This document shows, piece after piece, positions 18,232-40,224 of a stretch of 50,339 nt of DNA (the stretch's first letter is position 1; each line of letters starts with the position of its first letter). Where the stretch lies: positions 1-50,339 of the IMG/VR virus record IMGVR_UViG_3300030117_001589. One strand, given 5' to 3'. The stretch comes from a virus. The notes below the pieces were generated by a model, which worked only from the letters and a program-made list of their open reading frames with translations, was not told the DNA's origin and ran no database searches. Both the position numbers and the translations under genes were made by a program.

Positions 18232-18239
18232 TAATACTG

Positions 18240-18268
18240 TTGGATAAAACAAATATGTTAATTAAATT
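18240..18268 (+). promoter_or_regulatory. possible sigma70-like promoter before the internal-protein block
   Basis: The 61-base gap before the gene at 18293 contains TTGGAT, a 17-base spacer and TAAATT. The match is moderate, and AT-rich DNA produces such matches by chance. The gene that follows has no clear Shine-Dalgarno sequence, so a separate message with a short leader is possible. Confidence 0.25.
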
Positions 18269-18292
18269 AAATAGTAAAAGTATATAGTCAAT

Positions 18293-19567
18293 ATGGCCAC
18301 AGCTTCAAAAATAAAATCTTCAATTCGGTCTAGAGGAGCATCACAAAGACAATTAACAGGGCAATTAGCTGGTGTCTCTGAACAATTAATGAAAGCGCAA
18401 GAGTCATCAATGATGGCTCAATTAGAAGAAAAAGAACAAGCTGCAATGTTTGGTACTTTATCTGCTGGTTTAGAAGCTGGAGCATCTTTTTTAGAAGGTG
18501 TAAAACAAAGACAAGAATTACAATCTAATATAGATTTTTTATCAGAATCTTTAGGTGAACAAGGCAAAGAATTGTCTATGGTAAGAGGAGATAAATCATC
18601 CTTAATGGATGTTTTTTCAGGTAAGGCTTCTGTAAGTAGTTATTTATTTGGTCAACAGCAATATCAATTAGATGGTAAAAACGTAGGTAGCAAATATGAT
18701 GTATCTGCTATGGGTGAAAGAGCAAGGGCATTACAACAAGATAATATGTTAGATACTTTCTTAGGTGCAGATCCTTTGTCTAAAAAACAAGATGTTGGAT
18801 TAGATACATTAGAATCTCCTAAAATGCCTTCTATAACTGGTAGACCTACTCCTTTGCAAGAAAGAGCTGAAGGAGATGGCCCTTCTGGTTTAGAGTCTCC
18901 TAAAGAAATAAAATTACCTACAAAGCAAGATACAATGATGGATAAAGTTGGAGAGAAGATTGAAAAAGGTACTCTTGTAAAAAGCGATGGTAATGTAATT
19001 CCTGAAAAAATTGTTAATAAAACAAAAATGTCAGCGGAACAATATTTAGAAACAGATCCTCCTAATGCTATAAAAGAAATGATACAACCTAGTTATCCTA
19101 AAGAAGATAAGATTAATGATTTCTTAAAACCCTCTGTAGATCAACCTATAGAAAACGAAAAACTATCTAGTTTCTTACCAGATTATTTACAAAGTAAAGA
19201 TGAACCATTATTAGGGCCAGTTATAGATAGACCTTTACAAGAAAGAGCATTACAATACAGTTTTGATAAACCTTCTACTAAGAGATTAAGAAGTCCTCAA
19301 GGTGGAGCTAAGTTATTAAAAGACAAAATAAAAGATTTAAAAGTTGCTCAAGATAATTTAAAAGGTGCAAGACCTTCTGATAAGTTTAATAAAGAAAGAT
19401 TTTCTAAAATAGTAAATGAAAGATCAAGTGAATTAGAATCTTTAATATCTGAAATATATAATCCACAATTAGATTTATTTTATGGGGATGATAGTTCTGG
19501 TATTACTTTAAGAAAACAATTAGGTTCTGATTCTATTAAATTTATAAAACAATTAGCGAGTAAATAA
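18293..19567 (+). CDS. probable internal virion protein
   Basis: This 424-residue protein has a helical N-terminal region (~1-130, with AGLEAGASFLEGVKQRQELQ) and a hydrophilic, proline-containing middle (~150-300), and ends in a helical segment. It heads a block of five same-strand genes at 18.3-32.6 kb. Its Ala/Gln/Ser-rich helices resemble small internal or ejection proteins of podoviruses. I see no enzyme motif. The lack of a Shine-Dalgarno sequence before ATG 18293 is unusual for this genome. Confidence 0.5.
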   Translation: MATASKIKSSIRSRGASQRQLTGQLAGVSEQLMKAQESSMMAQLEEKEQAAMFGTLSAGLEAGASFLEGVKQRQELQSNIDFLSESLGEQGKELSMVRGDKSSLMDVFSGKASVSSYLFGQQQYQLDGKNVGSKYDVSAMGERARALQQDNMLDTFLGADPLSKKQDVGLDTLESPKMPSITGRPTPLQERAEGDGPSGLESPKEIKLPTKQDTMMDKVGEKIEKGTLVKSDGNVIPEKIVNKTKMSAEQYLETDPPNAIKEMIQPSYPKEDKINDFLKPSVDQPIENEKLSSFLPDYLQSKDEPLLGPVIDRPLQERALQYSFDKPSTKRLRSPQGGAKLLKDKIKDLKVAQDNLKGARPSDKFNKERFSKIVNERSSELESLISEIYNPQLDLFYGDDSSGITLRKQLGSDSIKFIKQLASK

Positions 19568-19568
19568 T

Positions 19569-20069
19569 ATGTATATACAAGCAGCAATGTTAGGTTTAAC
19601 CGCTTTACAAGAAATTGGATCAACTCGAAGAACAAGAGAACAAGGTCGTGAACAAGTAGGTTTTTATTCAGAAGCATTATCTGATTTAGGTTTAGCACAA
19701 CAATCATTATCAGAATCATTAGGTGCTAGTTTAGCTTTACCTACATTAGAAGCGCAAAGAGCAGCTGATATAACTGCTGAAAGAGCTCAAGTAGGATTAG
19801 AAGGAATTAGACAGAGACAAGAATCAATATCAGAAGCAACTGGATTTGCTGGAGCAGGTGTAGACCAAGATGCTTTAAGAAGAGCTAGAAAAGATTATAC
19901 TAGACAAGTAGAAGATATTGATATATCTCTTACTAAAAGTTTAGGAGATGTTTTATCTCAATTTGAACAACAAAAATTTGAAATGCAATCTCAAAGACAA
20001 CAATTAGAAATGCAAAAAAGATTAGCAGAAAGACAAGCTGGAACTAAATACTTTGGATTATTTGGATAA
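19569..20069 (+). CDS. probable internal virion protein, helical
   Basis: This 166-residue protein starts one base after the preceding stop. It is Gln/Ala/Arg-rich and almost fully helical (LSESLGASLALPTLEAQRAA, QFEQQKFEMQSQRQQLEMQK). The hydrophobic start (MYIQAAMLGLTALQEIG) followed by long coiled coils matches the composition of podoviral internal-core or ejection proteins. No membrane helix is certain. The role is inferred from composition and its place before two very large virion genes. Confidence 0.5.
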   Translation: MYIQAAMLGLTALQEIGSTRRTREQGREQVGFYSEALSDLGLAQQSLSESLGASLALPTLEAQRAADITAERAQVGLEGIRQRQESISEATGFAGAGVDQDALRRARKDYTRQVEDIDISLTKSLGDVLSQFEQQKFEMQSQRQQLEMQKRLAERQAGTKYFGLFG

Positions 20070-20072
20070 ATT

Positions 20073-21071
20073 ATGTCTCAAACATTACAAGCATTAAACT
20101 CTATAATTAAATATAAAAACGAAAGAGAACGTCAGAAGATTGATAGGTCTTTAGCTATGATGGATATGGCAACAAGACTTAGACAGCAAAAGATTGATAA
20201 TGCTAGACAAGAAAGAATGATGCAATTAAGAGAGAGTCAAGAAACAAGACAAGCTGAAAAAGCAGACTTAGATGCTACTTATTTAAATAAACAAATAAAT
20301 GCTTTAGATAAAGCTGATGTTCAACAAACAAATGAACTTGAATTACAAAAATTACAAGCTGAGGTAGATAAAGCTAGAGCAATAGCTGATAGAGAACAAA
20401 ATAAAAATGTTGAAAAAATAGAAGACGACTTAAAAGTTGGTATAGATAATGAAATAAGATCTCAAAAAGAAATAGTATATCAATCATTTCAACGTTCATT
20501 ACCCGGTCTTATGGATGCTATTAGCAAAGGAACTATGGATAATGAATTTAGTTTAGCTGAAAGCACTCAAGTTATTAATAGTCTTTCTAAAGTAGGTGAA
20601 ACAAAACAAGAAAGAAAACTATATGAGTATATAGGTAATAAATATGGTCAATTTTTAATACCAGCAATAGCAGGATTTCAATTATCTGGAGGTAAAGATT
20701 ACGATACATTAACTAATGGTTTAAGTAGATTTTATCTTGATGTAATGGAAAATGATAAAATGCAAAATTTATATCAAAATGCATTTGGAAAAGAATCTGA
20801 TGTTGTATTTCAAAATGATTTAAATAAATTAAGCAATATTATTGAGAGAGAAAACACATTAGAATCATATAAAAATTCAGGCGATATTACCAAAGATGCT
20901 TTAAAATATGCAAAGTTACAAGGTAAAGATAGAAATGCATTTTTAGATCAATATATAGGAAATATACTGCAACCTTATCTTGGAGATTTTACACAAGAAG
21001 ATATAGATGAAATTAATAGAAGAAGAGCGGAAGCTGGAGACGAAGAAATACCAGCAAGTGAATTTAAGTAA
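20073..21071 (+). CDS. probable internal virion protein, coiled-coil rich
   Basis: This 332-residue protein has a coiled coil over ~10-130 (RQQKIDNARQERMMQLRESQ, ELEKLQAEVDKARAIADREQ-like pattern) followed by a more globular helical domain to ~300 and an acidic tail. It starts three bases after its neighbour and ends two bases before the giant gene, so the group is one operon. No catalytic residues are recognised. A structural or ejection role is likely from context. Confidence 0.5.
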   Translation: MSQTLQALNSIIKYKNERERQKIDRSLAMMDMATRLRQQKIDNARQERMMQLRESQETRQAEKADLDATYLNKQINALDKADVQQTNELELQKLQAEVDKARAIADREQNKNVEKIEDDLKVGIDNEIRSQKEIVYQSFQRSLPGLMDAISKGTMDNEFSLAESTQVINSLSKVGETKQERKLYEYIGNKYGQFLIPAIAGFQLSGGKDYDTLTNGLSRFYLDVMENDKMQNLYQNAFGKESDVVFQNDLNKLSNIIERENTLESYKNSGDITKDALKYAKLQGKDRNAFLDQYIGNILQPYLGDFTQEDIDEINRRRAEAGDEEIPASEFK

Positions 21072-21073: not shown

Positions 21074-24000
21074 ATGCCTAGTCAAAGAGCGATACAAGCT
21101 TTATTAGATTTACAGAGAGAAAAACTACAAAACTCTGAAGAACCATTTGCATTAGCAAGTGCCTATAATTTAAATGAACCTAATGAATCTCAAAGGTTTA
21201 AAATCCAAAGGCAGCAACCTGAACAAACAGATAAAGATAGCAATGTAAGTTTATTACAAGCAGTTGGAGCTGGTCTATATGAATTTGGAGAAAGTGCATC
21301 TTTTGGCGCTGTAGGTTTTGCTGAAATAGGTGCTGAGAGAGCATTAGGTAGAGAGATAGAATTTCAAGAATATTTTAGACAGGCTCAAGAAGAAAGTTCT
21401 TTAGCTAAAGTATTAGGTGGTGTTGGAACAGGAGCGGGTTATTTACTAGGTGCTCCTATGAAACTAACAGCTAGGGTACTACAAAAACCTGCTACATCTA
21501 TTGTATCTAAGTTAGTAGGTAAACAAACAATAGGTAAAGCATCAAAAGAGTTTAGTGAAGAAGCATTAAAAGCTGGTATAGAAAAAGGTGTTGTTAATAA
21601 ATATACAAATGTATTAAAAGGTAAAACTGCTTGGGCTTCTACTAAAGGGAAAGATGCAAATAAAAAGTTTGCAGAACAATTTAATAACGAAATAAATAAA
21701 AGAACAGCTAGGGCATCAGCTAGGAAAGAACTTACAGATAAACAAATTGAAGTTGTTCAAAACATGAAAGATCGTATCATTAATAATGGTATACCTTTAC
21801 AAAATCTTTCTCAATATGCTCGTACAACTTATGGTAATAGTAAGTTTGGTAGGTTTGCTACGGAAGCTTTACATGATGCATTTGTATTTAGTGTAGCAGA
21901 TGCAGTAATGGATGTTTCTTTTCAAGGGCAACAATTAGTAAAAGATGAAAATGCTAAATTTAATTTAGGGCAGACTGGATATGCAGTCGCAACTGGATTT
22001 CTTGCTGGTACAGCTATAAACGCAGCTACAGCACCATTTGGGCCATTAGGTAAGATGTTTCAATCTAGAAAAGATTTTGCTAGTGGATTAAGAGCATACT
22101 TAGGTACAAATACTTATAAAGGCAAAGACTTAGAATATTTATCTGGTAATATGGCTGAAATAGCTAATATGAATCGTAAAAACAATATTAGCACAAGTTA
22201 TACATTTACATCTGATGGTAAACAAAAATCTATTGATTTATTACAAGACTATAATAATAGCAAAACAGTAAATAGTCAGGAAATAGCAAAACAATTAAGA
22301 AAAGAATTTGGTGACAATGCTGAGAAAAAAGCACAACAATGGTTAATGTCTCAGAAAAGATTCTATGGTAAAGAGATTATAAAAGAAGCAACAAGAGAGG
22401 GATTAGAAAATTATAGATTATTATTTCCTAGAATGATGGTTGCTGGTGCGGCTATGTCTGGAGTTCAAGGTATACAGATGTATGTTCAAGGTCAGGACTT
22501 ACAAGCAGAAGATTTTATATCTAGTATGTTGATAGGTGCATGGACACAAAGAAGAGGTAACTTTGCTAGAAGCGCAGATTTAAATGGTGAAATAAATAAT
22601 TTAAGAAAAACACTAGATCATTTAGGTATAGATAATTCTCAAACATTTTTTGCATCTACATTTTCTAAACCAAACAATGTATTTGGAGTAGGTTTATCAC
22701 GAGACAATGAAACATTAAAAAATTATTTGATAGAACAAAGAATAGTTAGTGATACGGATGAAACTATTACATCTGATAAATTACCAGAAGGAGAAAAAAC
22801 GTTTTTAGATTTAGAATCTGGAAGACCATTTGATCCTTATGATGGCAAACTAAATAAACTATATCAGATTATGAGTGAAGACTATAATCATGTAAAAAGT
22901 TTAGATCAAATATCTGAAAGACAAGCAAGAAGAATTAATGAAATTATAGAAACACAAGGTTTTAAGACAACAGAAGACATAGATAAGGCATTTACTCAAA
23001 GAGTTGAAGATGCTACGCAGAACATGGAAGAAAACTTAGTAAATGTATTAAATAGATTAAGATCTGCTGACTTAGATGGATTTAGTGTAGATGCAAATAA
23101 TAATAAATTAGTTATACCTAATTCATTTGAAATAGATTCTAAGTTACTTAAAAAAGCAAAGGATGGAGAGTTTGAATCTTGGTTGGGTAAAAGTGGAGAG
23201 CAAGCAGCTGAAGAGTTATTAAATGCAAAAAGAAGTTTCCATACAGTTGAAAAAATATTAATAGGTATAGATAGAGCAGAACCTAACAATACTAAAGATA
23301 ATAAAATATTAACAGAAGATGCATTAAAAGATTTTTATAATATAATAAGGGATTCTGAAAAATCAATTAATAGAATGACGAATCCTAAAGATGGTAGAAG
23401 AGAATTTAGATATACAGATTCAGATTCTTATATTATTCCTTTAATACAAAATAAAGGTAAGTTGTTTACTCAAAGAATATCTGATGTATTGTCTAAAGAT
23501 ACAATGCCTCAAAACTTACAATCATACTTAATAAATTCTGGATTACTTAAAAAAACTAAAGATGGCGAAGTAATGTTAATAGATGATATTTCTAGAATTG
23601 AAACAGATTATGAAAATAAAGCAAATGATTTAGGTAGATTGCATGGAATACTAATGGCTTTAGGTGATTATAAAATAACAAGTGAAAAACCAAATGAACC
23701 AAAGACTACTCAAATAGAAGCTTTAAAATTTATACTTCAAGATAATAAAATAGACATAGATACATTCAATAAACCTTCTATGAAGTTTTTATATCAAATG
23801 ACATTGAATGATATAAATAGAAGAAGAATGAATAATAAAGTTACTAATTCTAATGATATTAATTTTTTATTAAAACAATCTGGAAGTGCAATGTATAGTG
23901 ACACTGGTTTATTATCTGAAGGTGGTGTATCTGGATTTAGTTTATATAGAGTAAATATACCTCATACTGTTAGAGGGAGAAATTCAGATAATACATTAGA

Positions 24001-27000
24001 ATATGAATATAATAAAATACTAGAACGTTTAAATGAAGAAACAGATGGATTGGTAAAAATATCAGAAAGAAAAGTTGTTACAATTAATGAAACTCAAGGT
24101 AATCAATTAAAATTAAGAATGTTAGAAATATATGATGCTGATACAAAAATGGATAATCAAGTATTGCATGAGTTATTTGATACAATGAGCAACTCAAGAT
24201 TAGATAGTGTTAAGACTAGGATGCTTGAGTATATGAAAACATTAGGTGATCCTGCTAGAATAGACATACTAACTATGTTAAGAAGGCAGGGAATTATTAA
24301 AAGAAATGTAGATAATAATTTAGAAATAAATGAAAAATTTACATTAGAAAAAATAACAGAAGAAGCTGATGTTATAAAACGTAGACAAGAATTAAAAGAT
24401 GCATTAGAACCTATTAATAAAAAATTAATGAAGAGGGGATATACTGAAGAGTTTATTCAAAAAGAAATAGCAGATAGGCAAAAGATTGATAGGAGATACT
24501 TTAAAGAAGCTAGAGATGAAGTTAAAAATCCTTCAATTGGAATAGATGAATTTTATAGAAAATACCAATTTAAAATAATAAAAGGTGAAGTTGATGGTAT
24601 TCCAAATGTTGTTGAAATTAAAAGTTACGCAGATGAAAGCAATGCAGATAAAGTAAATAGATTTTTAAGTAAAGAATATATGTTAGGTGATGATGGTAAT
24701 TTAAATAAAGAATCAATAACTAAATTGCAAAATGATTTAGTATATAGAGGAGAATCTTTTAAAGATCTTAGTCCTAGAAAAAAACAAACTGCTATACAAG
24801 ATGTAACTCAAATTGTTTTTGGATTAAAAGATAGAATGGATCTTCCAACTATGTCTATTAGAAATGGAACTATTATATATGATCCTGTAAAAGAAAGAGA
24901 ATTTTTTCAGAAAAATCCTGTATTTAATTATTTAAATGATTTAAACATAGACTATGCAATATTCAATAATAACGTTACATATACTGAGTTTAATGATTAT
25001 ATAGTAGATAGAACATATAATATACTTAGCACAGAATCTTTAGGTGATAAAGAAAAAGCAAATATAGATAGAATAAGAAGTAGAGTTGCTGAGCAATTAA
25101 AAGATAAATCTTTAGGGTTAGATCTTAGCACTCAATTAAATGAAAAACAATTAGCTGATGGTGAATATGGTATTGTTAAGTTAGATATTTATGATGGTAT
25201 GGATAGTATTGTTATAAATAGAAGTGCTATGAAAAATATAGTAGATGACTTCTCAAGATTTTATAATCAGTATAAAGATAAATTAACAGGCAATTCTAAA
25301 AAATCAATAGAAATGCTTAATGAAACATTTAAAGAAACAAAGAATATACATAGATATGATGAAGCTAGTATAGAATTAGCAACAAGATATTTAATATTAG
25401 AAACATCATTAAAGAGTGAAACAGACCATGAATTATTAAAAGTATTAAACTCAAATGATGCTCAAGAAATTGGTAAATATATTAAAAGAATTAAACTTGT
25501 AACTACTAAAAATTTTATAAGACCTAATGAAGAATATTTAGAGTCTATTATACAATCTAGAACTGCTTTAGGAGATGATAAAGCATCTAAGTTAATTAAA
25601 AAAAGATTAAAAATAGAAAGTCACAGAGTAGCAATATGGGATGATGGTACTGAAAATATGGCAACTTTAATTAACGAAGATTTAGTTAATGAGTTTGGAG
25701 ATCAAATACCTGCCTTAAAAAATTATTCTCTTAAAAATATTATAGGCAATGCACATGAAAAAGTTTCAGGTTTTGATAGTATAAGTTTTATTTCTAAAGA
25801 TGCTATGATGGAATACCATACATATATGGGGCATAGTTCTGAATCTAAAAATCCAATTAAACCTATTATATCATCTCAAGGTGAAGGTAAAACATTATTA
25901 TATGGTAAAACTTTATTTGTATATAGTCCTTCTTTAGATGGATTTTTTAAAAGAAATAATGTAGATATACTATTAACTGGTTCAGGTGCAAAAATATATG
26001 ACCCTAAGATAGTAGGGGGTAAAGAACAAGATAGTGTAATTAAAGATGTAAGATGGGATGAATTAGTTGATAGTTACACAATAACAAAACCAGATAATCT
26101 TATAAGGGATGTAGATATAGATGCAATAGGATTTAGACCAGAAAAAGATGCAGATTTATTATCTGCTAGTGAATCAGATGCAGACTATAACTATATGAAT
26201 AGAAAAGAACATGAAGATGCTTTTAAAGGTTTGTTAGATGAATTAACTGCTAATCTTAATTCAATGGATAAGATATTAAAAGATCCATATAAGATGAATG
26301 CTTTTATGAAAGAGCAACTTATGAACAATAATATACCTAGTTCACCAGAACAAGGAGCTTTGGGTAATCTTAGCAATATGATGTATTATTTACAATTAAG
26401 TGATGCAGCTAATCCATATGATTATAGTTCAAACCAAGTTCAAAAATATTTAGCACAACAATATATAGATACATTATTTAGTACAAGAAGATCTATTACT
26501 AACAGAGTATACTCTGATAAAGATAAAAAACTAGCATTACCATCTAATAGATATGGAGGGCAAGCTCCACTAATTCAATCAGCTAAAGGGTATCTTGGCA
26601 AAGGATTGAAGACCAGATTGTTTCCAACTTTGTTTAACGATAATAATGAAATGATCTTAAGAGGTCAAATAGTTCTTCCATTTGCAGAAAGAAATACAAG
26701 TTTATCAGAATTATCAGATGATAAAAATGTAAGGATTGTACAGAACGAAAGAATATTATCTTTAGAAGAATTTAAAAATGAAATAAAAGACACAGTTAAA
26801 GATATAGATGAAATACCTAATTTAACTACATTAAGAGATGGTGATAATAAAACAATTGAAAGCATTGATGATATATTAAATAATGCAACTGTTGGTAGTG
26901 TCCATGACTTTTTAGAATCATATTCTAAACTTGTAAATAGAAGATATGAATTAGGTATAGTATCTAGAAGAAATCCAAGAACAAGACCTAATGATATAAC

Positions 27001-29725
27001 TATGTTAGGATTAAAAGGTTTTCTTGATAAAGAGCAAGGTTTAGGTGTAGAGATAAATAGTTTTGATATTGTTAATACATATGAAGGTGATTACGATGCT
27101 GATAAAGTAGATTACTTTTTTGCACATAGTGATTATATGTTTGATTATATAAAAAGAAATCAAGCATACTATGTTCAAGGAATAGACCCTGAACAATTAC
27201 AACAGAAACCAACATTTACTTTTCAAATGAACGCAGATGATTCAAGGGTAGCAACATTATCTAAAATGGGTCAAAGTATTGCATTTAAAAAAGCAATAGG
27301 AATAGCACAAAAAACTCCTAGAAAGTTAAATTATTTACAAAACTTAGCTAACGTAAATCATTTATCTGGCAAAACAGTATCTCCAGAATGGGAAGATGTA
27401 GCAAGAGGAGAAGAGGGTAACTTTGTAGGGCCAGGAATATTATACAACAGTAAAGTAAATGCTGAAGGAAAAGCAACAGAAGTAGTTACAATAGATACAG
27501 AGTCTCTTGCTTTTTATCAAAGGGCTGCTTTAGAGGTTCAATATATTATTGACGGAGCAAACAACTTAAATAAAAATATAGCAGGTAATATTTATGAATG
27601 GGCAGAAGGTTTCTTATTTCCAAAATATGAAAACTCAATATCTCCTACCGATGCTAAGTCTGAAGATTTAAAATCTATATTAAGAAATGGAAGAACTGAA
27701 AATGGTAAGAGAGTAAGAATATTTTCTAAATATGAATTAGTAGATGGTAAGTATAGAGAAGTAAGAGAGGATTTAAATAGCGCAGATAAACTAATTATAA
27801 ATGAGTTTCTTAATCAACAGAATAAATTGCTTAATGTATTTGGAGATACTAAATATGTTGCTGGTGAAAAAAGAAAAACAAGTTTTTATGATTTAAATAT
27901 GGGTAGTATGGCTTTTAGAAACTTTCATAAAGATATTTATCAAGGTATGCAAAGACAATTATTTTATAAAAAGAAAGGTATACAAGATAAAAAATATTTA
28001 AAAGAAATATTAGATCCAGAAAACGAAAGATTTAAACCTATATCTTCAACAGTAAGAAATGTTTATGATGGTGAATCTGGTAATTATTTAGATAGGATAG
28101 CTATTCAAATAGCACAAAAAGAAATATTAGAAGATAGAAAACAATATAATTTAGATATAGAAACTTATCAAGATGTAGAAAATTGGTATCAAGCAATGAT
28201 AAGTAGTCCTTCTAGGTTTGAAGAATCAAGTAGATTGTTAAATGTATTTGAACAAGAAAAACCAACAGGAGCAACAATAGAAGAACAAAGAGAATTTGTA
28301 TCTCAGGTAGATCAAAGAGCAAAAGGAATTAAAGACGATACCCAAGCATTTAATAGACAGATTGCTATAATTAAAAAATTAGATAATAAAAAGAAATCTA
28401 TTGCAAGAACAAACTATTCTTGGAAATGGAAAAAGAAAAAAACAGATAATATAAATTGGGTTATAAAAAAGTTAAGAGCTGATGTAAAAACTAAATTTGG
28501 TAAAAATATAGATAAGATACATTCAAAAGATTTAACATATAAAAATTATATAAGTGTAGAAGATAGTAATCTTAAATCAAGTATTATTCATGCAAATACA
28601 ATGAACGCTATGCTCAGAAACTTTTTTGGAACTAAGTATGATAATTGGTTTGAAACATTAAATGATGATGCTAGAAAAGATCTAAAGTCTATTAAAGATT
28701 TTAATAGGCAAACATATGGATCAAATACTTTGTTAGATGAAATATTTCCTTATGGTAAAAAATCTTTAATAACAAATGAAAATATTATAAAGTATGTTGA
28801 AGATTATAGAGGAGATATGGGTTCTGTATATGAACTAAGACAAAACTATCTTACTAGAATGATAGAAAAACATGGTGTAAACTTTTTATATGCATACATG
28901 GAACCTACTAGAAATAGAGATGATATAGGTATATTTAATAACAGACCAATAGCAATTCCATACAAAGAAAGTGCTAGGTATAGACATGGATTGCAGACAA
29001 TAGTTGGAATAGCAAATGGAACTTTAAAGTTAGGTGAGGATTCTACTTCTCAAGAACGAGCAAGAAATTGGGGAGAGTGGATATTAAATAGCACAATACA
29101 ATCTAATGAACATTATAGAAGATTTTTTGATAAAGACATTGCAATGATGAATTTAACAGATTCTAATATGGAAAGGTTTGGATTAATGCCGTTTGATAGA
29201 GGTACAGAAAATAGATTAAGAGAAGATGGTTCTGATTTTCAATGGTTATCTGAAATGCTACCATCAAATCCATTATCAACTATAAACAAATCTGTTACAC
29301 AATTTTATTCTAGTTATGCAAAGATGATACCAGATAAAACAAAAGATGATTATAAAGAGTTTTTAAAAGGTATGAACGATCTTGAAGAGTTTAGTTCTAG
29401 GAAAGATTATATTAATCCTATGAAGTATTTAAAATTAAAGTTAGAAATGGATGAATCATTTTTAGAGATACTTAAGAAAGATATATTTACAATGGGTAAT
29501 GAACAAGGGATACCTACTCACTTAAAAAATAATCCTATGTATACACATTTAAAATATTTAAAATTTAATCCTAAACAAGTTAAGTCAACTGATAAGTTAG
29601 TGGGTATGTTAAGAGGCGTAAATCAAGTGCATGAAGATTTAATGACTGGTGCAAGACAAAATCCAATGAGAGATTCTGGTTACGAAGCATTTAGAATGAT
29701 GAAGGACTATGCAAAGTGCAAGTAG
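21074..29725 (+). CDS. giant 2883-residue virion protein with RNA-polymerase-like active site
   Basis: The largest gene. The N-terminal ~500 residues contain hydrophobic, Gly/Ala-rich segments (~304-324, ~453-466) like ejected proteins. Residues 1964-2011 read SRRNPR...TMLGLKGF... then YEGDYDADKVDYFF. R1966-x-P1968 lies 38 residues before DYDAD (2006-2010). In bacterial RNA polymerase beta', NRAP is followed 33 residues later by DFDGD, the Mg-binding aspartates. A Lys/Gly segment at ~1600-1641 (GEGKTLLYGKTL, DILLTGSGAKI) could be the partner beta-type barrel, and RGQIVLP at 1863 a barrel strand. I infer a packaged two-barrel RNA polymerase fused to ejection domains, as in crAss-like phages. 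The Gly-to-Ala change in DxDGD is unusual. Confidence 0.6.
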   Translation: MPSQRAIQALLDLQREKLQNSEEPFALASAYNLNEPNESQRFKIQRQQPEQTDKDSNVSLLQAVGAGLYEFGESASFGAVGFAEIGAERALGREIEFQEYFRQAQEESSLAKVLGGVGTGAGYLLGAPMKLTARVLQKPATSIVSKLVGKQTIGKASKEFSEEALKAGIEKGVVNKYTNVLKGKTAWASTKGKDANKKFAEQFNNEINKRTARASARKELTDKQIEVVQNMKDRIINNGIPLQNLSQYARTTYGNSKFGRFATEALHDAFVFSVADAVMDVSFQGQQLVKDENAKFNLGQTGYAVATGFLAGTAINAATAPFGPLGKMFQSRKDFASGLRAYLGTNTYKGKDLEYLSGNMAEIANMNRKNNISTSYTFTSDGKQKSIDLLQDYNNSKTVNSQEIAKQLRKEFGDNAEKKAQQWLMSQKRFYGKEIIKEATREGLENYRLLFPRMMVAGAAMSGVQGIQMYVQGQDLQAEDFISSMLIGAWTQRRGNFARSADLNGEINNLRKTLDHLGIDNSQTFFASTFSKPNNVFGVGLSRDNETLKNYLIEQRIVSDTDETITSDKLPEGEKTFLDLESGRPFDPYDGKLNKLYQIMSEDYNHVKSLDQISERQARRINEIIETQGFKTTEDIDKAFTQRVEDATQNMEENLVNVLNRLRSADLDGFSVDANNNKLVIPNSFEIDSKLLKKAKDGEFESWLGKSGEQAAEELLNAKRSFHTVEKILIGIDRAEPNNTKDNKILTEDALKDFYNIIRDSEKSINRMTNPKDGRREFRYTDSDSYIIPLIQNKGKLFTQRISDVLSKDTMPQNLQSYLINSGLLKKTKDGEVMLIDDISRIETDYENKANDLGRLHGILMALGDYKITSEKPNEPKTTQIEALKFILQDNKIDIDTFNKPSMKFLYQMTLNDINRRRMNNKVTNSNDINFLLKQSGSAMYSDTGLLSEGGVSGFSLYRVNIPHTVRGRNSDNTLEYEYNKILERLNEETDGLVKISERKVVTINETQGNQLKLRMLEIYDADTKMDNQVLHELFDTMSNSRLDSVKTRMLEYMKTLGDPARIDILTMLRRQGIIKRNVDNNLEINEKFTLEKITEEADVIKRRQELKDALEPINKKLMKRGYTEEFIQKEIADRQKIDRRYFKEARDEVKNPSIGIDEFYRKYQFKIIKGEVDGIPNVVEIKSYADESNADKVNRFLSKEYMLGDDGNLNKESITKLQNDLVYRGESFKDLSPRKKQTAIQDVTQIVFGLKDRMDLPTMSIRNGTIIYDPVKEREFFQKNPVFNYLNDLNIDYAIFNNNVTYTEFNDYIVDRTYNILSTESLGDKEKANIDRIRSRVAEQLKDKSLGLDLSTQLNEKQLADGEYGIVKLDIYDGMDSIVINRSAMKNIVDDFSRFYNQYKDKLTGNSKKSIEMLNETFKETKNIHRYDEASIELATRYLILETSLKSETDHELLKVLNSNDAQEIGKYIKRIKLVTTKNFIRPNEEYLESIIQSRTALGDDKASKLIKKRLKIESHRVAIWDDGTENMATLINEDLVNEFGDQIPALKNYSLKNIIGNAHEKVSGFDSISFISKDAMMEYHTYMGHSSESKNPIKPIISSQGEGKTLLYGKTLFVYSPSLDGFFKRNNVDILLTGSGAKIYDPKIVGGKEQDSVIKDVRWDELVDSYTITKPDNLIRDVDIDAIGFRPEKDADLLSASESDADYNYMNRKEHEDAFKGLLDELTANLNSMDKILKDPYKMNAFMKEQLMNNNIPSSPEQGALGNLSNMMYYLQLSDAANPYDYSSNQVQKYLAQQYIDTLFSTRRSITNRVYSDKDKKLALPSNRYGGQAPLIQSAKGYLGKGLKTRLFPTLFNDNNEMILRGQIVLPFAERNTSLSELSDDKNVRIVQNERILSLEEFKNEIKDTVKDIDEIPNLTTLRDGDNKTIESIDDILNNATVGSVHDFLESYSKLVNRRYELGIVSRRNPRTRPNDITMLGLKGFLDKEQGLGVEINSFDIVNTYEGDYDADKVDYFFAHSDYMFDYIKRNQAYYVQGIDPEQLQQKPTFTFQMNADDSRVATLSKMGQSIAFKKAIGIAQKTPRKLNYLQNLANVNHLSGKTVSPEWEDVARGEEGNFVGPGILYNSKVNAEGKATEVVTIDTESLAFYQRAALEVQYIIDGANNLNKNIAGNIYEWAEGFLFPKYENSISPTDAKSEDLKSILRNGRTENGKRVRIFSKYELVDGKYREVREDLNSADKLIINEFLNQQNKLLNVFGDTKYVAGEKRKTSFYDLNMGSMAFRNFHKDIYQGMQRQLFYKKKGIQDKKYLKEILDPENERFKPISSTVRNVYDGESGNYLDRIAIQIAQKEILEDRKQYNLDIETYQDVENWYQAMISSPSRFEESSRLLNVFEQEKPTGATIEEQREFVSQVDQRAKGIKDDTQAFNRQIAIIKKLDNKKKSIARTNYSWKWKKKKTDNINWVIKKLRADVKTKFGKNIDKIHSKDLTYKNYISVEDSNLKSSIIHANTMNAMLRNFFGTKYDNWFETLNDDARKDLKSIKDFNRQTYGSNTLLDEIFPYGKKSLITNENIIKYVEDYRGDMGSVYELRQNYLTRMIEKHGVNFLYAYMEPTRNRDDIGIFNNRPIAIPYKESARYRHGLQTIVGIANGTLKLGEDSTSQERARNWGEWILNSTIQSNEHYRRFFDKDIAMMNLTDSNMERFGLMPFDRGTENRLREDGSDFQWLSEMLPSNPLSTINKSVTQFYSSYAKMIPDKTKDDYKEFLKGMNDLEEFSSRKDYINPMKYLKLKLEMDESFLEILKKDIFTMGNEQGIPTHLKNNPMYTHLKYLKFNPKQVKSTDKLVGMLRGVNQVHEDLMTGARQNPMRDSGYEAFRMMKDYAKCK

Positions 29726-32568
29726 ATTGCAATAAAACATTTAATAAAAAAGCAATAAAGTTATTAGAAGGTGTTGAAAAATGGGCTAATACTGATATGG
29801 TTGCTAGAAACATTCAGTCTCCATATCAAGCTGCTTTATCTATGTTTGAGTCTAGGTTTAATATAGAGATGGAATATGCTATGTTGTTAAGTCCAGAAAA
29901 AGGTGGAGCATTTCTTACTTCAGGTAATATAAATTCTTTTATAAGAGACTTAAATAAATATGCTCAACGAGTAGATAGTGGAAAGTTTACAGAATTTCAA
30001 GCAACTGAGGGATTTATGGTTGGAACAGTTCTTGGTAAAAGAGATCCTGTTTTAGCTGAAAGTATTAAAAGTTTACGAAGAGTTGTAGATAATAGTAAGA
30101 AAAGATCAAACAATTTAAATGAAAAGTTTACTAAAATAGTAGAAGGGTTAAGAGCATCTGGTGGAATCGTTGGCCCATTTAGTAATATAAAATTTAATAA
30201 GGCTTTAGATCAACATAGAAAATTAGAATTAGATTATATAAAAGCATTAGACACAGGAACGATAGAACAGCAAAATGAAGCAAGAGATATACTAAGAGAT
30301 TTTGAAAGCAAAGGTTCTATAAAAACATTTGTTGATTTTATTAAAGTAGTAGAAGATAAAATGCCAAAAGCTATATTAGCTAAATACGAAGCAGAAAAAA
30401 AGTTAGCTGAAGATGGAGATAAAGATGCTATAAGTAGAGTAAAAAAATATGATGATGGTAGTAAACTTGTAAAACTTACTGATTCTGAATTTATGAAATA
30501 CTCTGATGAAGTTGGAATACCAGAAGATTTAAAACAATCTTTAAAAGATTATAATTCATTAATGGAGGAATCTTATTCTATTTTAAGAAATGGCATTGAT
30601 GAAAAAATAAATATAATTATAAAACAAATTGAAAATAGAAAAGGTTTTGCATTAACAGTTGATAATTTAAATACTTTAAAAGAAAATTTAAGATCTAGAT
30701 TAATGCCTAGATATACAGAAGGATACTTTCCACATTTTACAAAACAACTTAATGCTAAAATGATGGATGGAATGATGAAACACTTTGATGATTTAGATGA
30801 ATCATTAATAGACATGAAAAAAGATGTTAAAACTATAGATCAAATTATTCAAGAAATAAATGTATCTATACCTGAGTATGGAAAGTCTAGAGCAAGAGAT
30901 GGATATAATGAATATAGTATGAATTTTATAGATGTTATTAATACATATATAAATGACGTAAACAAATTTAATACACAAGCATTTATTAAAAGTGGTTTGT
31001 TAGATTCATTATCAAAAGCAAGAAATATGTACAACAAAGAATCTGAGTACGCAGGTAGAGTTGTTGATATTATTAATAGCTTGTATGGATCTACAAATGG
31101 AAGTATTAAAAATACAGGAACTACGCATGAAATTAAAAAAGCCTTACTCTCATACCAATTTACAAATAAACTAGGTTTTAGTGTACGTTCTGCAGCTAGA
31201 AACGCTACTCAGTATTTAATGAACTATGCAACATTTGGATATACAGCAGTTAAAGAATCCAGAAAATACTTAAGAGAAAATCAAGCAACTGATGTATTTG
31301 GTGGAGACTTAGATGATTTCTTAAGAAGGGAAAACTTGTTTATGGATTCATCAGAAGCATTAATAGAATCTGGAGTAAGAAGTGAATCAGCATCTTTTAA
31401 TAGAATAAGAAGGATGGATGAAAATGGAAAAATAATATATGCTGATGAAGAAGATTTTTTATATAAGGGTGTTAAGATATTCTCTACTAAGATGGGTCAA
31501 TTAGCAAACTTTAGTGCTGGTTTACATAGAAAAGTTGAAAATGCTAATAGAAAAATTACTGCTGAAATTGCATTTGCTCAGATACAAAAAACAATGGAAG
31601 GCAATTCAAAATTTCAAGCATATTTAGAAGCGCAGGTAAAAGATCATAATGAAAAAAATCCTAATAAAAAAATTAGTGAAACATCTTTAAGAAGAAAGAT
31701 AGCAAGAAACTATGCAAAGAATATGGTGATATTAAATCATTTTGATTATGAAGGGTATGCCAAAGCTAAGAATATGAGAGAAGGCATAGGTCAATTTTTA
31801 TTTCAGTTTCAACATTATGGTATGGAATTTTTAGAAAGAAACTATTCTATATATAAAGAGGCAAAAGGTGATCTTAGTGCATTAGGAGATGATAATTTTT
31901 CTAATTGGTTAAAAGATGCTAGAGGTGTTCATAAAGCAATGAATGTAACTACTGCATATTTTATGGCTCCAATACTTATTAGTTATATATCTGGGTATAA
32001 TCAAACTCTTATAGAACACACAGGTGAAGAATTAATGAAAGATTTATGGTTATTGTTTACATCAGATTACGATGATCCAGATACTATAGAAAAAATAAAT
32101 AGAGAGTTTTATGGTAAAGGTATTGTTGGTTCTAAGTTAGGCCCTACATTTAGTACAATGCTAGATATAGGTGTAATGACAGAACTTATAAATGCTGATA
32201 ATGAATACTTAGACAACATATTATTTAGTTTAGGTGATTATGCAAATGATGATACTATGGAAACCTATGGTAAGTATGCTAGATTAATTAATCAAATGGG
32301 TGGTAGAACTTACGATAGATATATACCTATGACTGCTAAAACACCATATGGATTAGGTGCAGCTGCTATGCAAGAGTTTACTTTATATCCAAAGAAAAAA
32401 GATGAAAAAACTTTTTATAAACAATTTGTAGAACCTACTACAAAAGAACAATTTCCTACATATTATTTTGAAAGACTAGAAAGAAAAGCTGGTAGAAACA
32501 AAAAGTATTCTGGTTTACCAATAGAAATACAAAACTCATTAAAAGAATTAGAACGGAAGGGTAAATAA
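29716..32568 (+). CDS. 950-residue internal/ejected virion protein
   Basis: The start is GTG 29716, overlapping the giant gene's stop by ten bases, with AAGGA ten bases upstream. The protein is mainly helical and charged, with coiled coils at ~110-330 and a C-terminal part containing IGQFLFQFQHYGMEFLERNY and a hydrophobic segment AYFMAPILISYISGY (~750-765). It is likely packaged and ejected with the giant protein. The tight overlap suggests fixed stoichiometry or a former fusion. The C-terminus lies inside the bidirectional terminator at 32540-32587. No enzyme motif is recognised. Confidence 0.55.
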   Translation: MQVDCNKTFNKKAIKLLEGVEKWANTDMVARNIQSPYQAALSMFESRFNIEMEYAMLLSPEKGGAFLTSGNINSFIRDLNKYAQRVDSGKFTEFQATEGFMVGTVLGKRDPVLAESIKSLRRVVDNSKKRSNNLNEKFTKIVEGLRASGGIVGPFSNIKFNKALDQHRKLELDYIKALDTGTIEQQNEARDILRDFESKGSIKTFVDFIKVVEDKMPKAILAKYEAEKKLAEDGDKDAISRVKKYDDGSKLVKLTDSEFMKYSDEVGIPEDLKQSLKDYNSLMEESYSILRNGIDEKINIIIKQIENRKGFALTVDNLNTLKENLRSRLMPRYTEGYFPHFTKQLNAKMMDGMMKHFDDLDESLIDMKKDVKTIDQIIQEINVSIPEYGKSRARDGYNEYSMNFIDVINTYINDVNKFNTQAFIKSGLLDSLSKARNMYNKESEYAGRVVDIINSLYGSTNGSIKNTGTTHEIKKALLSYQFTNKLGFSVRSAARNATQYLMNYATFGYTAVKESRKYLRENQATDVFGGDLDDFLRRENLFMDSSEALIESGVRSESASFNRIRRMDENGKIIYADEEDFLYKGVKIFSTKMGQLANFSAGLHRKVENANRKITAEIAFAQIQKTMEGNSKFQAYLEAQVKDHNEKNPNKKISETSLRRKIARNYAKNMVILNHFDYEGYAKAKNMREGIGQFLFQFQHYGMEFLERNYSIYKEAKGDLSALGDDNFSNWLKDARGVHKAMNVTTAYFMAPILISYISGYNQTLIEHTGEELMKDLWLLFTSDYDDPDTIEKINREFYGKGIVGSKLGPTFSTMLDIGVMTELINADNEYLDNILFSLGDYANDDTMETYGKYARLINQMGGRTYDRYIPMTAKTPYGLGAAAMQEFTLYPKKKDEKTFYKQFVEPTTKEQFPTYYFERLERKAGRNKKYSGLPIEIQNSLKELERKGK

Positions 32569-32602: not shown

Positions 32603-32788
32603 TTATGCTGTAAATTTAGTCTCTTCACTCATTTGAATTAACTTTTCTAATTGTTTCGTTGCGTTTATAAATAATTCTAACATTTTAATAATAGATTTAT
32701 CGTCATGTCTTTCCATTGCTGATTCAATTGATTTGCATACATTCTTAGATGTTTTTATCCATAGTTCTATACTATCTTTATTCTCCAT
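32603..32788 (-). CDS. 61-residue helical hypothetical protein
   Basis: The last gene of the minus-strand arm. The ATG has AAGGAG upstream and overlaps the end of the resolvase gene. The product is helical (SIELWIKTSKNVCKSIESAM, IIKMLELFINATKQLEKLI) with no membrane segment. It is coupled to the resolvase and just upstream of the bidirectional terminator. The family is unknown. Confidence 0.55.
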   Translation of the reverse strand: MENKDSIELWIKTSKNVCKSIESAMERHDDKSIIKMLELFINATKQLEKLIQMSEETKFTA

Positions 32789-33272
32789 TTTGTCTCTCCT
32801 TTTCTGTGTACATTCCGTACATTGTTATTAATACAGCATCAGCATTCCATAGAGTTGCTGGTTTGTCTGTGTAGACAGATGCTATTTCTTTAAGTTTATT
32901 TTTTCTATCTTTTTTTACTTTAGGAAACTTCTCTCCTATTTTACTTTCCCAAAACTTCATCCATTTTTGTGGTGATACTTCTACTATTTGATTTATAGTA
33001 TTTAAAGAATGTAGTATACCTAACCATGCTCCATAGTTTACTCCAAACTTAAACAAAGAACTACGACCATCGTGAGGCATTGCATGGACTTTTTCTATAT
33101 ATGCTATTGTTTCATATGATCTATAAGCATTAGCAGCCATAGAAGCAGTTACCCTTCTACCAGCAATTGATGGATGGCATTTATGTGTATACATATCTTT
33201 TTTTTCTGAACTAGCAAAGCATAATGCCCCACTAGCGCCAGGGTCTATTCCTATTACTGTTATAGGTCTCAT
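32778..33272 (-). CDS. RuvC-like Holliday junction resolvase
   Basis: This 164-residue protein has a RuvC-type RNase H fold: strand 1 with the first catalytic Asp in VIGIDPGASGAL (D10), the Glu strand with YIEKVHAMP (E60) and the C-terminal LWNADAVLI (D145). The length fits bacterial RuvC and phage resolvases. It would cut branched DNA from recombination or replication before packaging. It overlaps the upstream zinc-motif gene as ATGA and the downstream small gene, so it is part of the replication operon. The annealing protein, nuclease and SSB upstream give it a clear context. Confidence 0.85.
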   Translation of the reverse strand: MRPITVIGIDPGASGALCFASSEKKDMYTHKCHPSIAGRRVTASMAANAYRSYETIAYIEKVHAMPHDGRSSLFKFGVNYGAWLGILHSLNTINQIVEVSPQKWMKFWESKIGEKFPKVKKDRKNKLKEIASVYTDKPATLWNADAVLITMYGMYTEKERQNGE

Positions 33273-33568
33273 TGTGCATCCTTTCTATATGAATAGTTAT
33301 GTGCGCTTTTCACATACTTTTTCTTATATGTTTTGTATTGTCGTTTATATATTTTATACTTATCACTAAGTATCTCTCCATCAAACTTATTAAGTATAAG
33401 TTGTTGTTGTTCCGATACCGACATTACCATATTAGTATTTTTGTATTTAGTACAACCTTTATCGTAAACTTCTTTAGGTATGACTTTAGGGGGAGTGCCA
33501 TCAATATCTTTAAACCAATAACATTTATCCTCGATGCCGTAGTAGCATCCCCCACAAGTCTTACGCAA
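33269..33568 (-). CDS. 99-residue zinc-motif protein (TTG start)
   Basis: The best start is TTG at 33568-33566, inside the helicase stop region, with GGAGAAAG upstream. This gives MRKTCGGCYYGIEDKCYWF. Longer upstream versions lie under the helicase frame and look unlike protein. CxxC at ~5-8, one more Cys at ~16 and a fourth in KGCTKYK (~37) form a likely zinc site. A basic, Tyr/Lys-rich C-terminal helix follows (YKRQYKTYKKKYVK). It is coupled to helicase and resolvase, so a DNA-related role is likely. The family is not recognised. Confidence 0.6.
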   Translation of the reverse strand: MRKTCGGCYYGIEDKCYWFKDIDGTPPKVIPKEVYDKGCTKYKNTNMVMSVSEQQQLILNKFDGEILSDKYKIYKRQYKTYKKKYVKSAHNYSYRKDAQ

Positions 33569-34883
33569 CTGTATCTTTCTCCGCTTCTTTGTAATCGTTG
33601 TAGAACTTACATTTGTTACCATTGAATCCCATAGGATAAGTACCAATCTGTCCGTATCTGCTCTTAGCAACAATTACTTCACTCTTATATCTGTTGTACT
33701 TTTCACTATCAAAGTTGTATCCATAGAATACAAACATTGCTGATTCAGCAGTTTGTTCTATCACACCTGACTCTGCATAGTCACTCATTCTAGGTCTAGG
33801 ATCAAATCGTTTTTCAATATCACGATTCAATTGCGATACAAGTATTGCAGAACAATTGTTTTGTTTTACTGCCCATTTGTAGTCTTGTACAATCTTTTCA
33901 ATCTCGAATCTTCTGTCTTTGTAACCTTGTCCTACATCAATCAATTGAATGTAATCATCAATAACAACATCGGGTTTACCTTTGTTAATCTCACGAATAC
34001 AATCATCTAGACTTCGTATATCATCAAATGCTGTGAGTTTCTCATACTTCTCCTTAACATATTCAGATACACTATTGAGTGCAATCTTCTTATCTTCGGA
34101 TATTCCAGAACGAATCATAGAATAACTAATGTCATTAGATTCCATTACATACAACTTTTTCATAGTTTCTATGTTGCTCATCTCACGATTGAATAGCATA
34201 ACACTATATCCTTGCTCAATCAATCCTCGAACTACATTCAGCATAAGAGTAGTCTTACCATGGCCAGGTCTGCCACCAAGAACTGTAATCTCTTTGCGAG
34301 TCATTCCACCTGCGAAGTTATCTAATCTACCAAGACCAAATTGTATTGTATTAGAATCTTCTTGTAATGATTGGTTTGTTTCATCAACAATATCACTAAT
34401 GTCTCTTGCTCTTGTAGGTTGTATGTGTCTTAGCTCATCAATCAATCTGCTATGCTTTTCGATAATATTACCTACTTCATTGTAGTTTTCATAACTAGCA
34501 TTAAGTAAGTCTTGAGCTGATTTAGCAGTCTCTCTTTGTATGTATCTTTCCCATACAATTTTAGAGTAGTGTTCAACTTTGCTTTTTGTAACTACATTAT
34601 CTTGCAAATCCATAATGTATAAACTATCTTGCATACCAAATGTTTCTTGCACTTTGTTTGATAAAGTAATTACATCAATAGGTATCTTATTATTGTATAG
34701 TTCTTTCATACATATGAATATGTTTCTGCATTTTTCTGAATAAAAGGCATCGTCTTCTCGTATCCATCCCATTGCTATTTGCATTTCTACATCTCCACCA
34801 ATCAATACAGAACCAAGAACTGCTTCTTCAGCTTCTACATTTTGAGGCATTACTTTCACTAATACATCCTCTATTTTCTTCAT
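33561..34883 (-). CDS. replicative DNA helicase, DnaB type
   Basis: This 440-residue protein starts at ATG 34883, set by the AAAGGAG just upstream. The N-terminal DnaB domain (~14-115, PQNVEAEEAVLGSVLIGG) is followed by a linker and a RecA-like core with Walker A GRPGHGKT (204-211), Walker B VVIDDY (307-311) and the later SQLNRDIEKRFDPRPRMSD motif. It would form a hexamer that unwinds DNA at the fork. The phage has no visible polymerase or primase, so the helicase probably recruits host enzymes. It follows the Dam gene by ten bases. Confidence 0.9.
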   Translation of the reverse strand: MKKIEDVLVKVMPQNVEAEEAVLGSVLIGGDVEMQIAMGWIREDDAFYSEKCRNIFICMKELYNNKIPIDVITLSNKVQETFGMQDSLYIMDLQDNVVTKSKVEHYSKIVWERYIQRETAKSAQDLLNASYENYNEVGNIIEKHSRLIDELRHIQPTRARDISDIVDETNQSLQEDSNTIQFGLGRLDNFAGGMTRKEITVLGGRPGHGKTTLMLNVVRGLIEQGYSVMLFNREMSNIETMKKLYVMESNDISYSMIRSGISEDKKIALNSVSEYVKEKYEKLTAFDDIRSLDDCIREINKGKPDVVIDDYIQLIDVGQGYKDRRFEIEKIVQDYKWAVKQNNCSAILVSQLNRDIEKRFDPRPRMSDYAESGVIEQTAESAMFVFYGYNFDSEKYNRYKSEVIVAKSRYGQIGTYPMGFNGNKCKFYNDYKEAEKDTVA

Positions 34884-34893
34884 ATAATCTCCT

Positions 34894-35724
34894 TTAAAAT
34901 AAACTTGTCTGATTGACAGGTTCATAGTTTAATATTAAATACTCCTTTCTTTTCTTTAATCTGTTTTCGTCTGTAGCACCTTGATACTTTAAATCAATAG
35001 TGATTACATTATAGTCTTTGTATAGATCATACACCTCGTCTCTATAGTCGTATGATACCATAAATTTACCACCATTTTTATTTATATCATCTACTTTTTC
35101 CTTTAATCTAATGTGATCTTCAGCAGTAAAGTTATGTTGATAGTAATCACCTTTATCTGTTGCTATGAAATAAGGTGGATCTAAGTACCAGAAATCTCCA
35201 TTACGAGGTTTGTATCTATCTATAAAATCACCAAAGTCTAAGTTTTCTATTGTAGCACCTGCTATCTTTTCTCTAGAATACTTTAGTTCTGCTCCCCAAT
35301 CTTTCTTCCAATCTTTTACCATTGACATTGGAGTGTGTATAAGTTTGTTAAAGCTGTGTCTTATACAATAAAAGTATTTAGCAGCTTGATAAGGATCTGG
35401 TATTTCAATAGGTTTCTTTTCTCTAACATCTGCACGAAAGTCCTCAAATATCTTCCTTGATTTTGGCAACCAATTTAAATTATAAACAAGTTCATCTAGT
35501 TTATGTATGACACACATATATAGATTTACTATATTATTATCTTTATCGTTTACTGTATTCCATGTTGCTTTTTCTTTACGAAAGAACATAGACAAACCAC
35601 CAGAAAATACTTCAAAATACCTTTCATGGGGGGGTATGTAAGGAACAAGTTTCTTGCTCAATTCATACTTCCCACCATAATAAGGTATAACTATAGGACA
35701 ATCGTACCAATCAAGCGATGGCAA
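34894..35724 (-). CDS. Dam-type adenine-N6 DNA methyltransferase
   Basis: This 276-residue class D12 enzyme has PYYGGK (14-19), the SAM-binding FEVFSGG (37-43) and the catalytic WYLDPPYF (DPPY 182-185). The most upstream in-frame start is TTG 35724, with GAGG six bases upstream and a 14-base overlap with the DUF932 gene. No restriction enzyme is visible nearby, so it is an orphan methylase. It may protect phage DNA from host restriction or mark it for replication or packaging. GATC is the usual target of this family, but specificity cannot be read from the sequence. Confidence 0.85.
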   Translation of the reverse strand: MPSLDWYDCPIVIPYYGGKYELSKKLVPYIPPHERYFEVFSGGLSMFFRKEKATWNTVNDKDNNIVNLYMCVIHKLDELVYNLNWLPKSRKIFEDFRADVREKKPIEIPDPYQAAKYFYCIRHSFNKLIHTPMSMVKDWKKDWGAELKYSREKIAGATIENLDFGDFIDRYKPRNGDFWYLDPPYFIATDKGDYYQHNFTAEDHIRLKEKVDDINKNGGKFMVSYDYRDEVYDLYKDYNVITIDLKYQGATDENRLKKRKEYLILNYEPVNQTSLF

Positions 35725-36502
35725 CTTTAGCCTCTTTGTATGCTAGTTTCTTTATCTTAGGATAAAGTCTTTGCTCAATAGAATGTGTAGAGTTTAGTCC
35801 TCTGTTCATGTGATGTGTTAGTACATTAGTTCCAACATTAAATAGATCCCAAAATGTCTTAGGATTATTTGCAATAATCTTATCAGTAATCAATGTATTT
35901 GTATGTTCTGGAAACATCTTCATAAAGTCAAGCATATGCTTTTCTTTAAAGTTTGTTTCTGCAAGAACAGGAAACTCATCTTTGAATACTAATTTAGTTT
36001 TATCAACAGTTGCTTCTACTATATCACTAATATCATCTAATGACATATTACTAGATATGTGTTTGTTTCTGTATTTAGAAACAACAATACCTATGACTGA
36101 TCCATTCAAACATATCAATCTAAATGCACCTGCCATAATATTTAAACCAACAGTTCCATCATAACTATTAGTAATGTTAATCTCAGGAATCATTTCATCT
36201 ATCTTAGAAAACTTTACTTTTTCTTTTGGGAATTTCCAAGATAGCATAGTCTTAGCACCATGATTAAGTACATTAACTTCTTTTAATTCACCACCTAGTT
36301 TCTTAATAAGTGGATTTGCTTTCTTGATTATTGTTTCATTCTTTACAAGTTTGTAACTGTCTGTCATGCAACTTAATATTTTACCTGTGTCTTCTCTAAT
36401 AATGAATTTATAACCAGTACTACCTATATGATCTAATTCACCTTTTTTGTTTACTATTGTAGCTGGAACTTCCTTAACAGGAAATTTAGCATTTTGTAAC
36501 AT
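35711..36502 (-). CDS. DUF932-like protein
   Basis: This 263-residue protein starts behind AAAGGAGAGA. It has the general layout of the DUF932 phage/plasmid family: an N-terminal beta region (YKFIIREDTGKILSCMTDSY), a middle with AKTMLSWKFP and SYDGTVGLNIMAGAFRLICL, and a helical end (NRGLNSTHSIEQRLYP). Proteins of this family are widespread in phages and plasmids near replication genes, with no settled activity. It overlaps the Dam gene by 14 bases and is likely translated with it. Confidence 0.7.
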   Translation of the reverse strand: MLQNAKFPVKEVPATIVNKKGELDHIGSTGYKFIIREDTGKILSCMTDSYKLVKNETIIKKANPLIKKLGGELKEVNVLNHGAKTMLSWKFPKEKVKFSKIDEMIPEINITNSYDGTVGLNIMAGAFRLICLNGSVIGIVVSKYRNKHISSNMSLDDISDIVEATVDKTKLVFKDEFPVLAETNFKEKHMLDFMKMFPEHTNTLITDKIIANNPKTFWDLFNVGTNVLTHHMNRGLNSTHSIEQRLYPKIKKLAYKEAKVAIA

Positions 36503-36522
36503 AGTCTCTCTCCTTTGTTTTG

Positions 36523-36696
36523 TTATAATAAATCGTCGTACATATCGTTAAGATTTCTATCTAATATGTCTATTTTTTTTTCTATTCTATGAACTCTATA
36601 TAGCATAGAAAGATTTAGTAAAAGTACCATTAGCATAGTGAACTCCCAATATGGAAAATATTCTACACTAAACAGTGCTTCCCAATAATATCTCAT
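36523..36696 (-). CDS. 57-residue single-span membrane protein
   Basis: The start ATG 36696 overlaps the stop of the upstream micro-gene as ATGA, with AAAAGGAG upstream. The sequence is aromatic at first (MRYYWEALFSVEYFPYW), then has a hydrophobic helix (~19-33, TMLMVLLLNLSMLY) and a polar helix with VHRIEKKIDILDRNLN. It probably sits in the inner membrane with a cytoplasmic coiled tail. It belongs to the minus-strand operon. Its function is unknown; superinfection exclusion or host-membrane takeover are possible. Confidence 0.6.
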   Translation of the reverse strand: MRYYWEALFSVEYFPYWEFTMLMVLLLNLSMLYRVHRIEKKIDILDRNLNDMYDDLL

Positions 36697-36803: not shown

Positions 36804-36819
36804 TATCTCTCCTTTTTTT

Positions 36820-36930: not shown

Positions 36931-36932
36931 AT

Positions 36933-37799: not shown

Positions 37800-37800
37800 A

Positions 37801-38257: not shown

Positions 38258-38274
38258 TTCGTCTCCTATAAAAT

Positions 38275-39031: not shown

Positions 39032-39041
39032 TTTATTCTCC

Positions 39042-40211: not shown

Positions 40212-40224
40212 TGTTATCCTTTAT

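Follow-up and report, generated by a model that had tools for sequence, protein, structure and literature searches.

A predicted two-barrel RNA polymerase within a giant putative virion protein of a phage with a genome of about 50 kb

The window, that is the whole stretch of 50,339 nucleotides analysed here (IMG/VR record IMGVR_UViG_3300030117_001589), contains an open reading frame (ORF) at 21074-29725 on the plus strand, encoding a giant protein of 2883 amino acids. Its gene is surrounded by other large genes of the late-strand block, an arrangement comparable to that of the crAss RNA polymerases (RNAPs), whose genes lie among those of large virion proteins. The phage genes recognised in the window encode a P22-like portal, an SU10-type capsid protein, terminase subunits and tail fibres; given the P22-like portal, the phage is likely to be short-tailed and podovirus-like. 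The ends of the window (1-588 and 49752-50339) overlap by 588 bp inside the portal gene; the genome is therefore about 49.75 kb long and close to complete. The two ends are 94.2% identical, and the record, though classed as linear, joins variant genomes. The features considered below are the following.

13424..21071, plus strand: upstream genes (ORFs) for proteins of 1013, 588, 424, 166 and 332 aa, a predicted internal or ejection block
21074..29725, plus strand: giant protein, predicted virion (ejection) protein with RNA polymerase (ORF; similar size in relatives)
25271..28333, plus strand: modelled RNA polymerase module, aa 1400-2420 (AlphaFold2; Foldseek top match 6VR4)
25766..26038, plus strand: predicted beta-like barrel DPBB-B, aa ~1565-1655, with D1568, K1596, K1612, D1631 and K1640 (conservation, model strands, weak hmmsearch match; limits approximate)
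26546..27124, plus strand: predicted beta'-like barrel DPBB-A, aa ~1825-2017, with R1966-x-P1968 and DYDAD (model strands; hhalign)
26969..26977, plus strand: RxP motif R1966-N-P1968
27089..27103, plus strand: D2006-Y-D2008-A-D2010, predicted catalytic metal-binding aspartates
27233..27349, plus strand: candidate bridge helix, aa ~2054-2092, with invariant G2076 (39-residue helix in the model; assigned by position only, not superposed)
29716..32568, plus strand: 950-aa protein, probable co-ejected partner (10-base overlap with the end of the polymerase gene)
32778..43564, minus strand: module encoding a Holliday junction resolvase, DnaB helicase, D12 methylase, DUF932 protein and PD-(D/E)XK nuclease

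Positions 26900-27200 translate to ...SRRNPRTRPNDITMLGLKGFLDKEQGLGVEINSFDIVNTYEGDYDADKVDYF..., in which R1966-N-P1968 is followed 38 residues on by D2006-Y-D-A-D2010. The heptapeptide G-D-Y-D-A-D-K comprises residues 2005-2011, and the DNA pattern for it occurs only once in the genome, at 27086-27106. An initial annotation, made from sequence alone, had proposed that R1966-x-P1968 and GDYDADK, separated by 38 residues, resemble the active site of RNA polymerases, and both motifs were confirmed at these positions. The motif alone is weak evidence. DxDxD occurs near chance level, with 6 matches in the 12,942 residues of this genome's larger proteins, two of them inside the giant protein, and plain sequence searches of Pfam, PHROGs and PDB sequences with the giant protein gave no significant match. 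Both observations would fit a chance resemblance, in which DYDAD and RxP have nothing to do with RNA polymerases. We regard this explanation as very unlikely, since two structure predictions both retrieved RNA polymerases from the whole PDB, a second catalytic block is conserved, and a profile match was obtained with reversed controls.

For conservation analysis, peptide patterns from outside the motif (MMEYHTYM, YKMNAFMK and others) were used to retrieve 26 relatives. All 26 kept DYDAD and RNPRTRP, and the longer stretches RNPRTRPND and EGDYDADK were likewise retained in 26/26; because these motif-independent relatives keep DYDAD, the conservation goes beyond chance. Wider scans, which reach members about 24-30% identical over the core, were baited with the motif itself, so that the retention of DYD.D in 100% of their members follows in part from the search design. 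In a set of 48 diverse sequences, less than 75% identical to each other, D2006, D2008, D2010 and P1968 were invariant, and position 1966 was R in 47 members and K in one. Outside the bait, K1596, P1597, G1611, K1612, T1613, D1631, K1640, G1864 and G2076 were invariant in all 48, while D1568 was found in 47, with one gap. The second conserved block (K1596, K1612, K1640) lies 400 residues upstream of the motif block, and conservation along the giant protein peaks at residues ~1561-1620 and ~1981-2040, a pattern that two barrels forming a single active site would produce. Among the lysines suggested in the initial annotation, K1612 proved invariant and K1606 variable, the actual set being K1596, K1612 and K1640. 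The giant protein has the same size in relatives (~2750-3000 aa where complete). In the branch of L092 and L093, Ala replaces Lys after DYDAD (EGDYDADAVHY); the lysine of the crAss-like DxDxDK is therefore not essential.

A polymerase-like fold that has lost its enzyme activity, with barrels serving as a DNA-binding or ejection scaffold, could be considered as well, since there are virion proteins that retain a fold but have no activity, and activity is here only inferred. This is very unlikely, however: members with as little as 24% identity to the core of the window's protein still have all three Asp, all three Lys and P1968, and such strict retention would be difficult to account for in a protein that does not catalyse.

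The family profile was compared with RNAPs of crAss-like phages, among them phi14:2 gp66 (KC821624 gp077 in the phage collection used). The motif region reads YRIPNQGQSSNDPLQIVGILPEAMGDTIVAYTEIPTKTGSDFDIDKM in phi14:2 gp66 vs RRNPRTRPNDITMLGLKGFLDKEQGLGVEINSFDIVNTYEGDYDADKV in the giant protein, and the distance from P to the first D is 37 and 38 residues, respectively. Using hhalign, the motif block (DPBB-A) matched crAss RNAPs with an E-value of 5.7e-5, compared to 0.39 for the reversed control. The hhalign probability was modest, at 66% when the motif block was aligned by itself and 7% with the entire core. Alignments were informative only when run with -norealign or block by block; whole cores aligned with default realignment gave a meaningless result. 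The Lys block alone gave no significant hhalign match to crAss RNAPs (E 0.084). In hmmsearch with block profiles, several crAss sequences outranked all reversed sequences for both barrels, the match of the Lys block being weak, and by eye D1568, K1596, K1612, D1631 and K1640 align with the crAss RNAP pattern D(A/S)...K...K...D...K. As the Lys block is not supported by hhalign alone, its assignment rests on fold and conservation. P23-45 gp96 and gp64 gave no signal against the family profile, and no relatives of the giant protein were found in 50,697 phage records or in 84,980 species genomes.

AlphaFold2 models were computed for residues 1400-2420 (29 sequences; mean pLDDT 79.6, pTM 0.78) and for the core, residues 1540-2115 (48 sequences; pLDDT 79.8, pTM 0.79), and searched with Foldseek against 350,542 PDB chains, the best 50 rows being listed per search. 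For residues 1400-2420, 6VR4 (the phi14:2 virion RNAP) ranked first (E 1.6e-7, prob 1.00), followed by QDE-1, maize RDR2 and large subunits of multisubunit RNAPs, and all 50 listed matches were two-barrel RNA polymerases (RNAPs or QDE-1/RDR enzymes). The core model retrieved S. pombe Pol I first (1.1e-4), 6VR4 second (1.8e-4) and then QDE-1; its 50 listed rows contained only RNAPs and QDE-1, with the non-virion RNAPs of phages AR9 and phiKZ lower down. The alignments covered 1096 columns for 6VR4 and up to 1017 for QDE-1 with the larger model, and 484-644 for QDE-1 with the core. Global TM-scores to solved RNAPs were low (0.31-0.36 by query length) and rmsd was high, so that domain packing either differs or is poorly modelled; we therefore claim the fold class and not the exact architecture. 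Within this limit, the matches to 6VR4 and QDE-1 predict two double-psi beta-barrel (DPBB) folds in one chain, the Lys barrel first, although the TM-scores are low and the individual barrels were not inspected. The conserved lysines looked for in the second barrel are present as invariant K1596, K1612 and K1640, their position in a pocket being inferred. According to the initial annotation, the idea would fail if DYDAD were not conserved in homologues or if the predicted fold lacked double-psi barrels. DYDAD is kept and the predicted structures match two-barrel RNA polymerases, so the claim held on both points, the latter at the level of fold class, and the proposed likeness to an RNA polymerase active site is supported by conservation and predicted fold.

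A T7-like giant virion polymerase of the N4 type, instead of a two-barrel enzyme, was suggested by the similar size of the N4 virion RNAP and its similar place in the ejection block (PMC12633501). It is all but excluded, as no T7-like or N4 polymerase was among the 50 listed Foldseek matches of either model and no Pfam T7 RNAP match was obtained.

In BFVD, a library of viral structures, the best matches, with TM 0.73 and 0.68, were to unnamed proteins; further unnamed proteins ranked next, along with proteins of crAss-like phages. Two proteins of the unclassified Virus NIOZ-UU157, A0A7S9XE14 and A0A7S9STY9, matched the polymerase model in this library (E 3.4e-8 and 6.8e-3), and this virus is perhaps another lineage with such an enzyme.

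The genes at 13424..21071 gave no family match and are partly conserved in relatives. The 950-aa protein is encoded directly downstream of the giant gene in 18/18 related loci tested, down to 25% identity and including the most distant branch; it showed no family match and no relation to the proteins encoded downstream of crAss RNAPs. It contains conserved HFDY and QFQHY motifs. The reverse-strand module likely represents the early genes and a possible template of the virion polymerase, its timing being inferred. Among the larger proteins scanned, none was recognised as a DNA polymerase, a primase or a further RNA polymerase; within that scope, the earlier statement that no other phage polymerase is seen held for RNA polymerase.

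The two-barrel RNAP might also be a non-virion enzyme comparable to P23-45 gp64 or the phiKZ nvRNAP, one that is made in the infected cell and transcribes middle or late genes. Phages with non-virion two-barrel RNAPs do exist (PMC10770324), and no proteomics is available for this phage. We consider this unlikely, however, since the RNAP sits in a 2883-aa protein within a late-strand run of large genes, with size and neighbours conserved, whereas enzymes such as gp64 (616 aa) are small and free.

Although the polymerase is of the crAss kind, the phage probably does not belong to Crassvirales, judging by portal, major capsid protein (MCP) and genome size. A genome of ~49.75 kb fails the size criterion of this order (about 90-105 kb). 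In tblastn searches of the phage collection, the MCP had no match and the portal had three, none of them crAss; the phi14:2 RNAP used as query found 139 records in the same collection, most of them crAss-like by name. The large terminase does not decide the matter: it gave 373 weak matches, and none of the 12 listed was crAss-like (the remaining rows were not covered).

No promoter motif was found: sigma-70-like sites occurred at shuffled frequency (83 vs 89.1), and no shared repeat stood out. A strong terminator-like stem lies at 32550-32583 between the convergent late and early blocks, with 14 pairs on the minus strand and a shorter stem on the plus strand. Ahead of the early operon, 704 nt without long ORFs (42585-43288, minus strand) fold far better than shuffled sequences (z -4.30; plus strand -1.38). 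This region had no Rfam match; several related genomes share conserved blocks of it in an unchanged order, separated by inserts that vary, and it possibly encodes a large structured phage RNA. Shine-Dalgarno-like sites precede 11/11 sampled reverse-strand genes (32778-43564) and none of the genes starting at 13424-21074, the random background being 15%. Such sites are common on the early strand here, whereas in phi14:2 they are near background (6/30). This pattern might point to a host that uses Shine-Dalgarno sites, unlike that of phi14:2, and to an ejection block that is translated in another way.

Sequence, conservation, fold match and gene order were computed directly. On this basis, the C-terminal half of the giant protein is very likely a single-chain two-barrel DNA-dependent RNA polymerase of the crAss gp66/QDE-1 type, which is likely packaged, ejected and active in early transcription; activity, packaging, ejection, promoter choice and early transcription are all inferred. 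In the proposed mechanism, D2006, D2008 and D2010 would bind the catalytic Mg2+, K1596 and K1612 (perhaps also K1640) from the other barrel would line the same pocket, a geometry that is inferred, and R1966 and P1968 would take the place of the beta' RxP loop. The giant protein would be packed in the capsid head together with its neighbour proteins, leave through the tail, either preceding the DNA or together with it, and refold on entering the host; the polymerase would then transcribe the replication genes on the reverse strand before the host polymerase comes into play. The ejection steps are modelled by analogy on a review (PMC7886860), the virion cargo of phiCrAss001 (PMC10172136) and P23-45 gp96 (PMC10770324). 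The virion location and the start of early transcription, both already suggested in the initial annotation, thus remain inferences from gene order and analogy.

A bolder reading, which seems unlikely, would be that a widespread, entirely uncultured lineage of ~50-kb short-tailed phages outside Crassvirales relies on a packaged two-barrel enzyme and has no polymerase besides it. If true, this enzyme would carry out early transcription, bring in the DNA by transcribing it and perhaps also make primers, the last because no protein was recognised as a DNA polymerase or a primase.

Returning to the two-barrel virion RNAP as such, the giant protein family is likely a new, deeply diverged family of a known kind of enzyme, with no cultured member found; its listing in the supplementary survey of PMC10770324 is not excluded. 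Its polymerase would allow the virus to begin transcription of its genome immediately. So far, packaged two-barrel RNA polymerases are known only from a few groups, the crAss-like, phiKZ-like and P23-45-like phages. The present family adds a diverged one in small phages that standard sequence libraries missed, and suggests that the polymerase gene moved between unrelated phage lineages or predates Crassvirales. Invariant K1596, K1612, K1640, P1968 and D2006/2008/2010, together with nearly invariant R1966, are targets for testing which residues are minimally needed for catalysis in this class of enzymes.

Several known systems resemble the giant protein in part. N4 gp50 (Schitoviridae) is a giant ejected protein with a built-in polymerase, located among ejection proteins (PMC12633501); its polymerase domain belongs to the T7-like class and is not a two-barrel enzyme. 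QDE-1 and RDR2, the second-best group of fold matches, carry the Lys barrel before the DxDxD barrel in one chain (QDE-1 lysines K743/K767, PMC1750930), but are cellular eukaryotic enzymes of RNA interference and not phage proteins. In P23-45 gp96, a two-barrel virion RNAP is fused to the tail tape measure protein, and this giant component of the virion passes into the host, as proposed here (PMC10770324). However, P23-45 has an extremely long tail and its RNAP is at the N-terminus of gp96, whereas the present phage looks short-tailed and its RNAP is in the C-terminal half; gp96 was not among the 50 listed Foldseek matches, its presence in that library not having been checked. Phi14:2 gp66 (6VR4) differs in its larger genome (100,418 bp vs ~50 kb here) and is only ~22-24% identical over 37-50 profile-aligned positions. 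Nevertheless, it shares with the giant protein the single chain, the giant size, the location in a block of large genes, the spacing of RxP, G and DxDxDK, and the D, K, K, D, K pattern in the other barrel.
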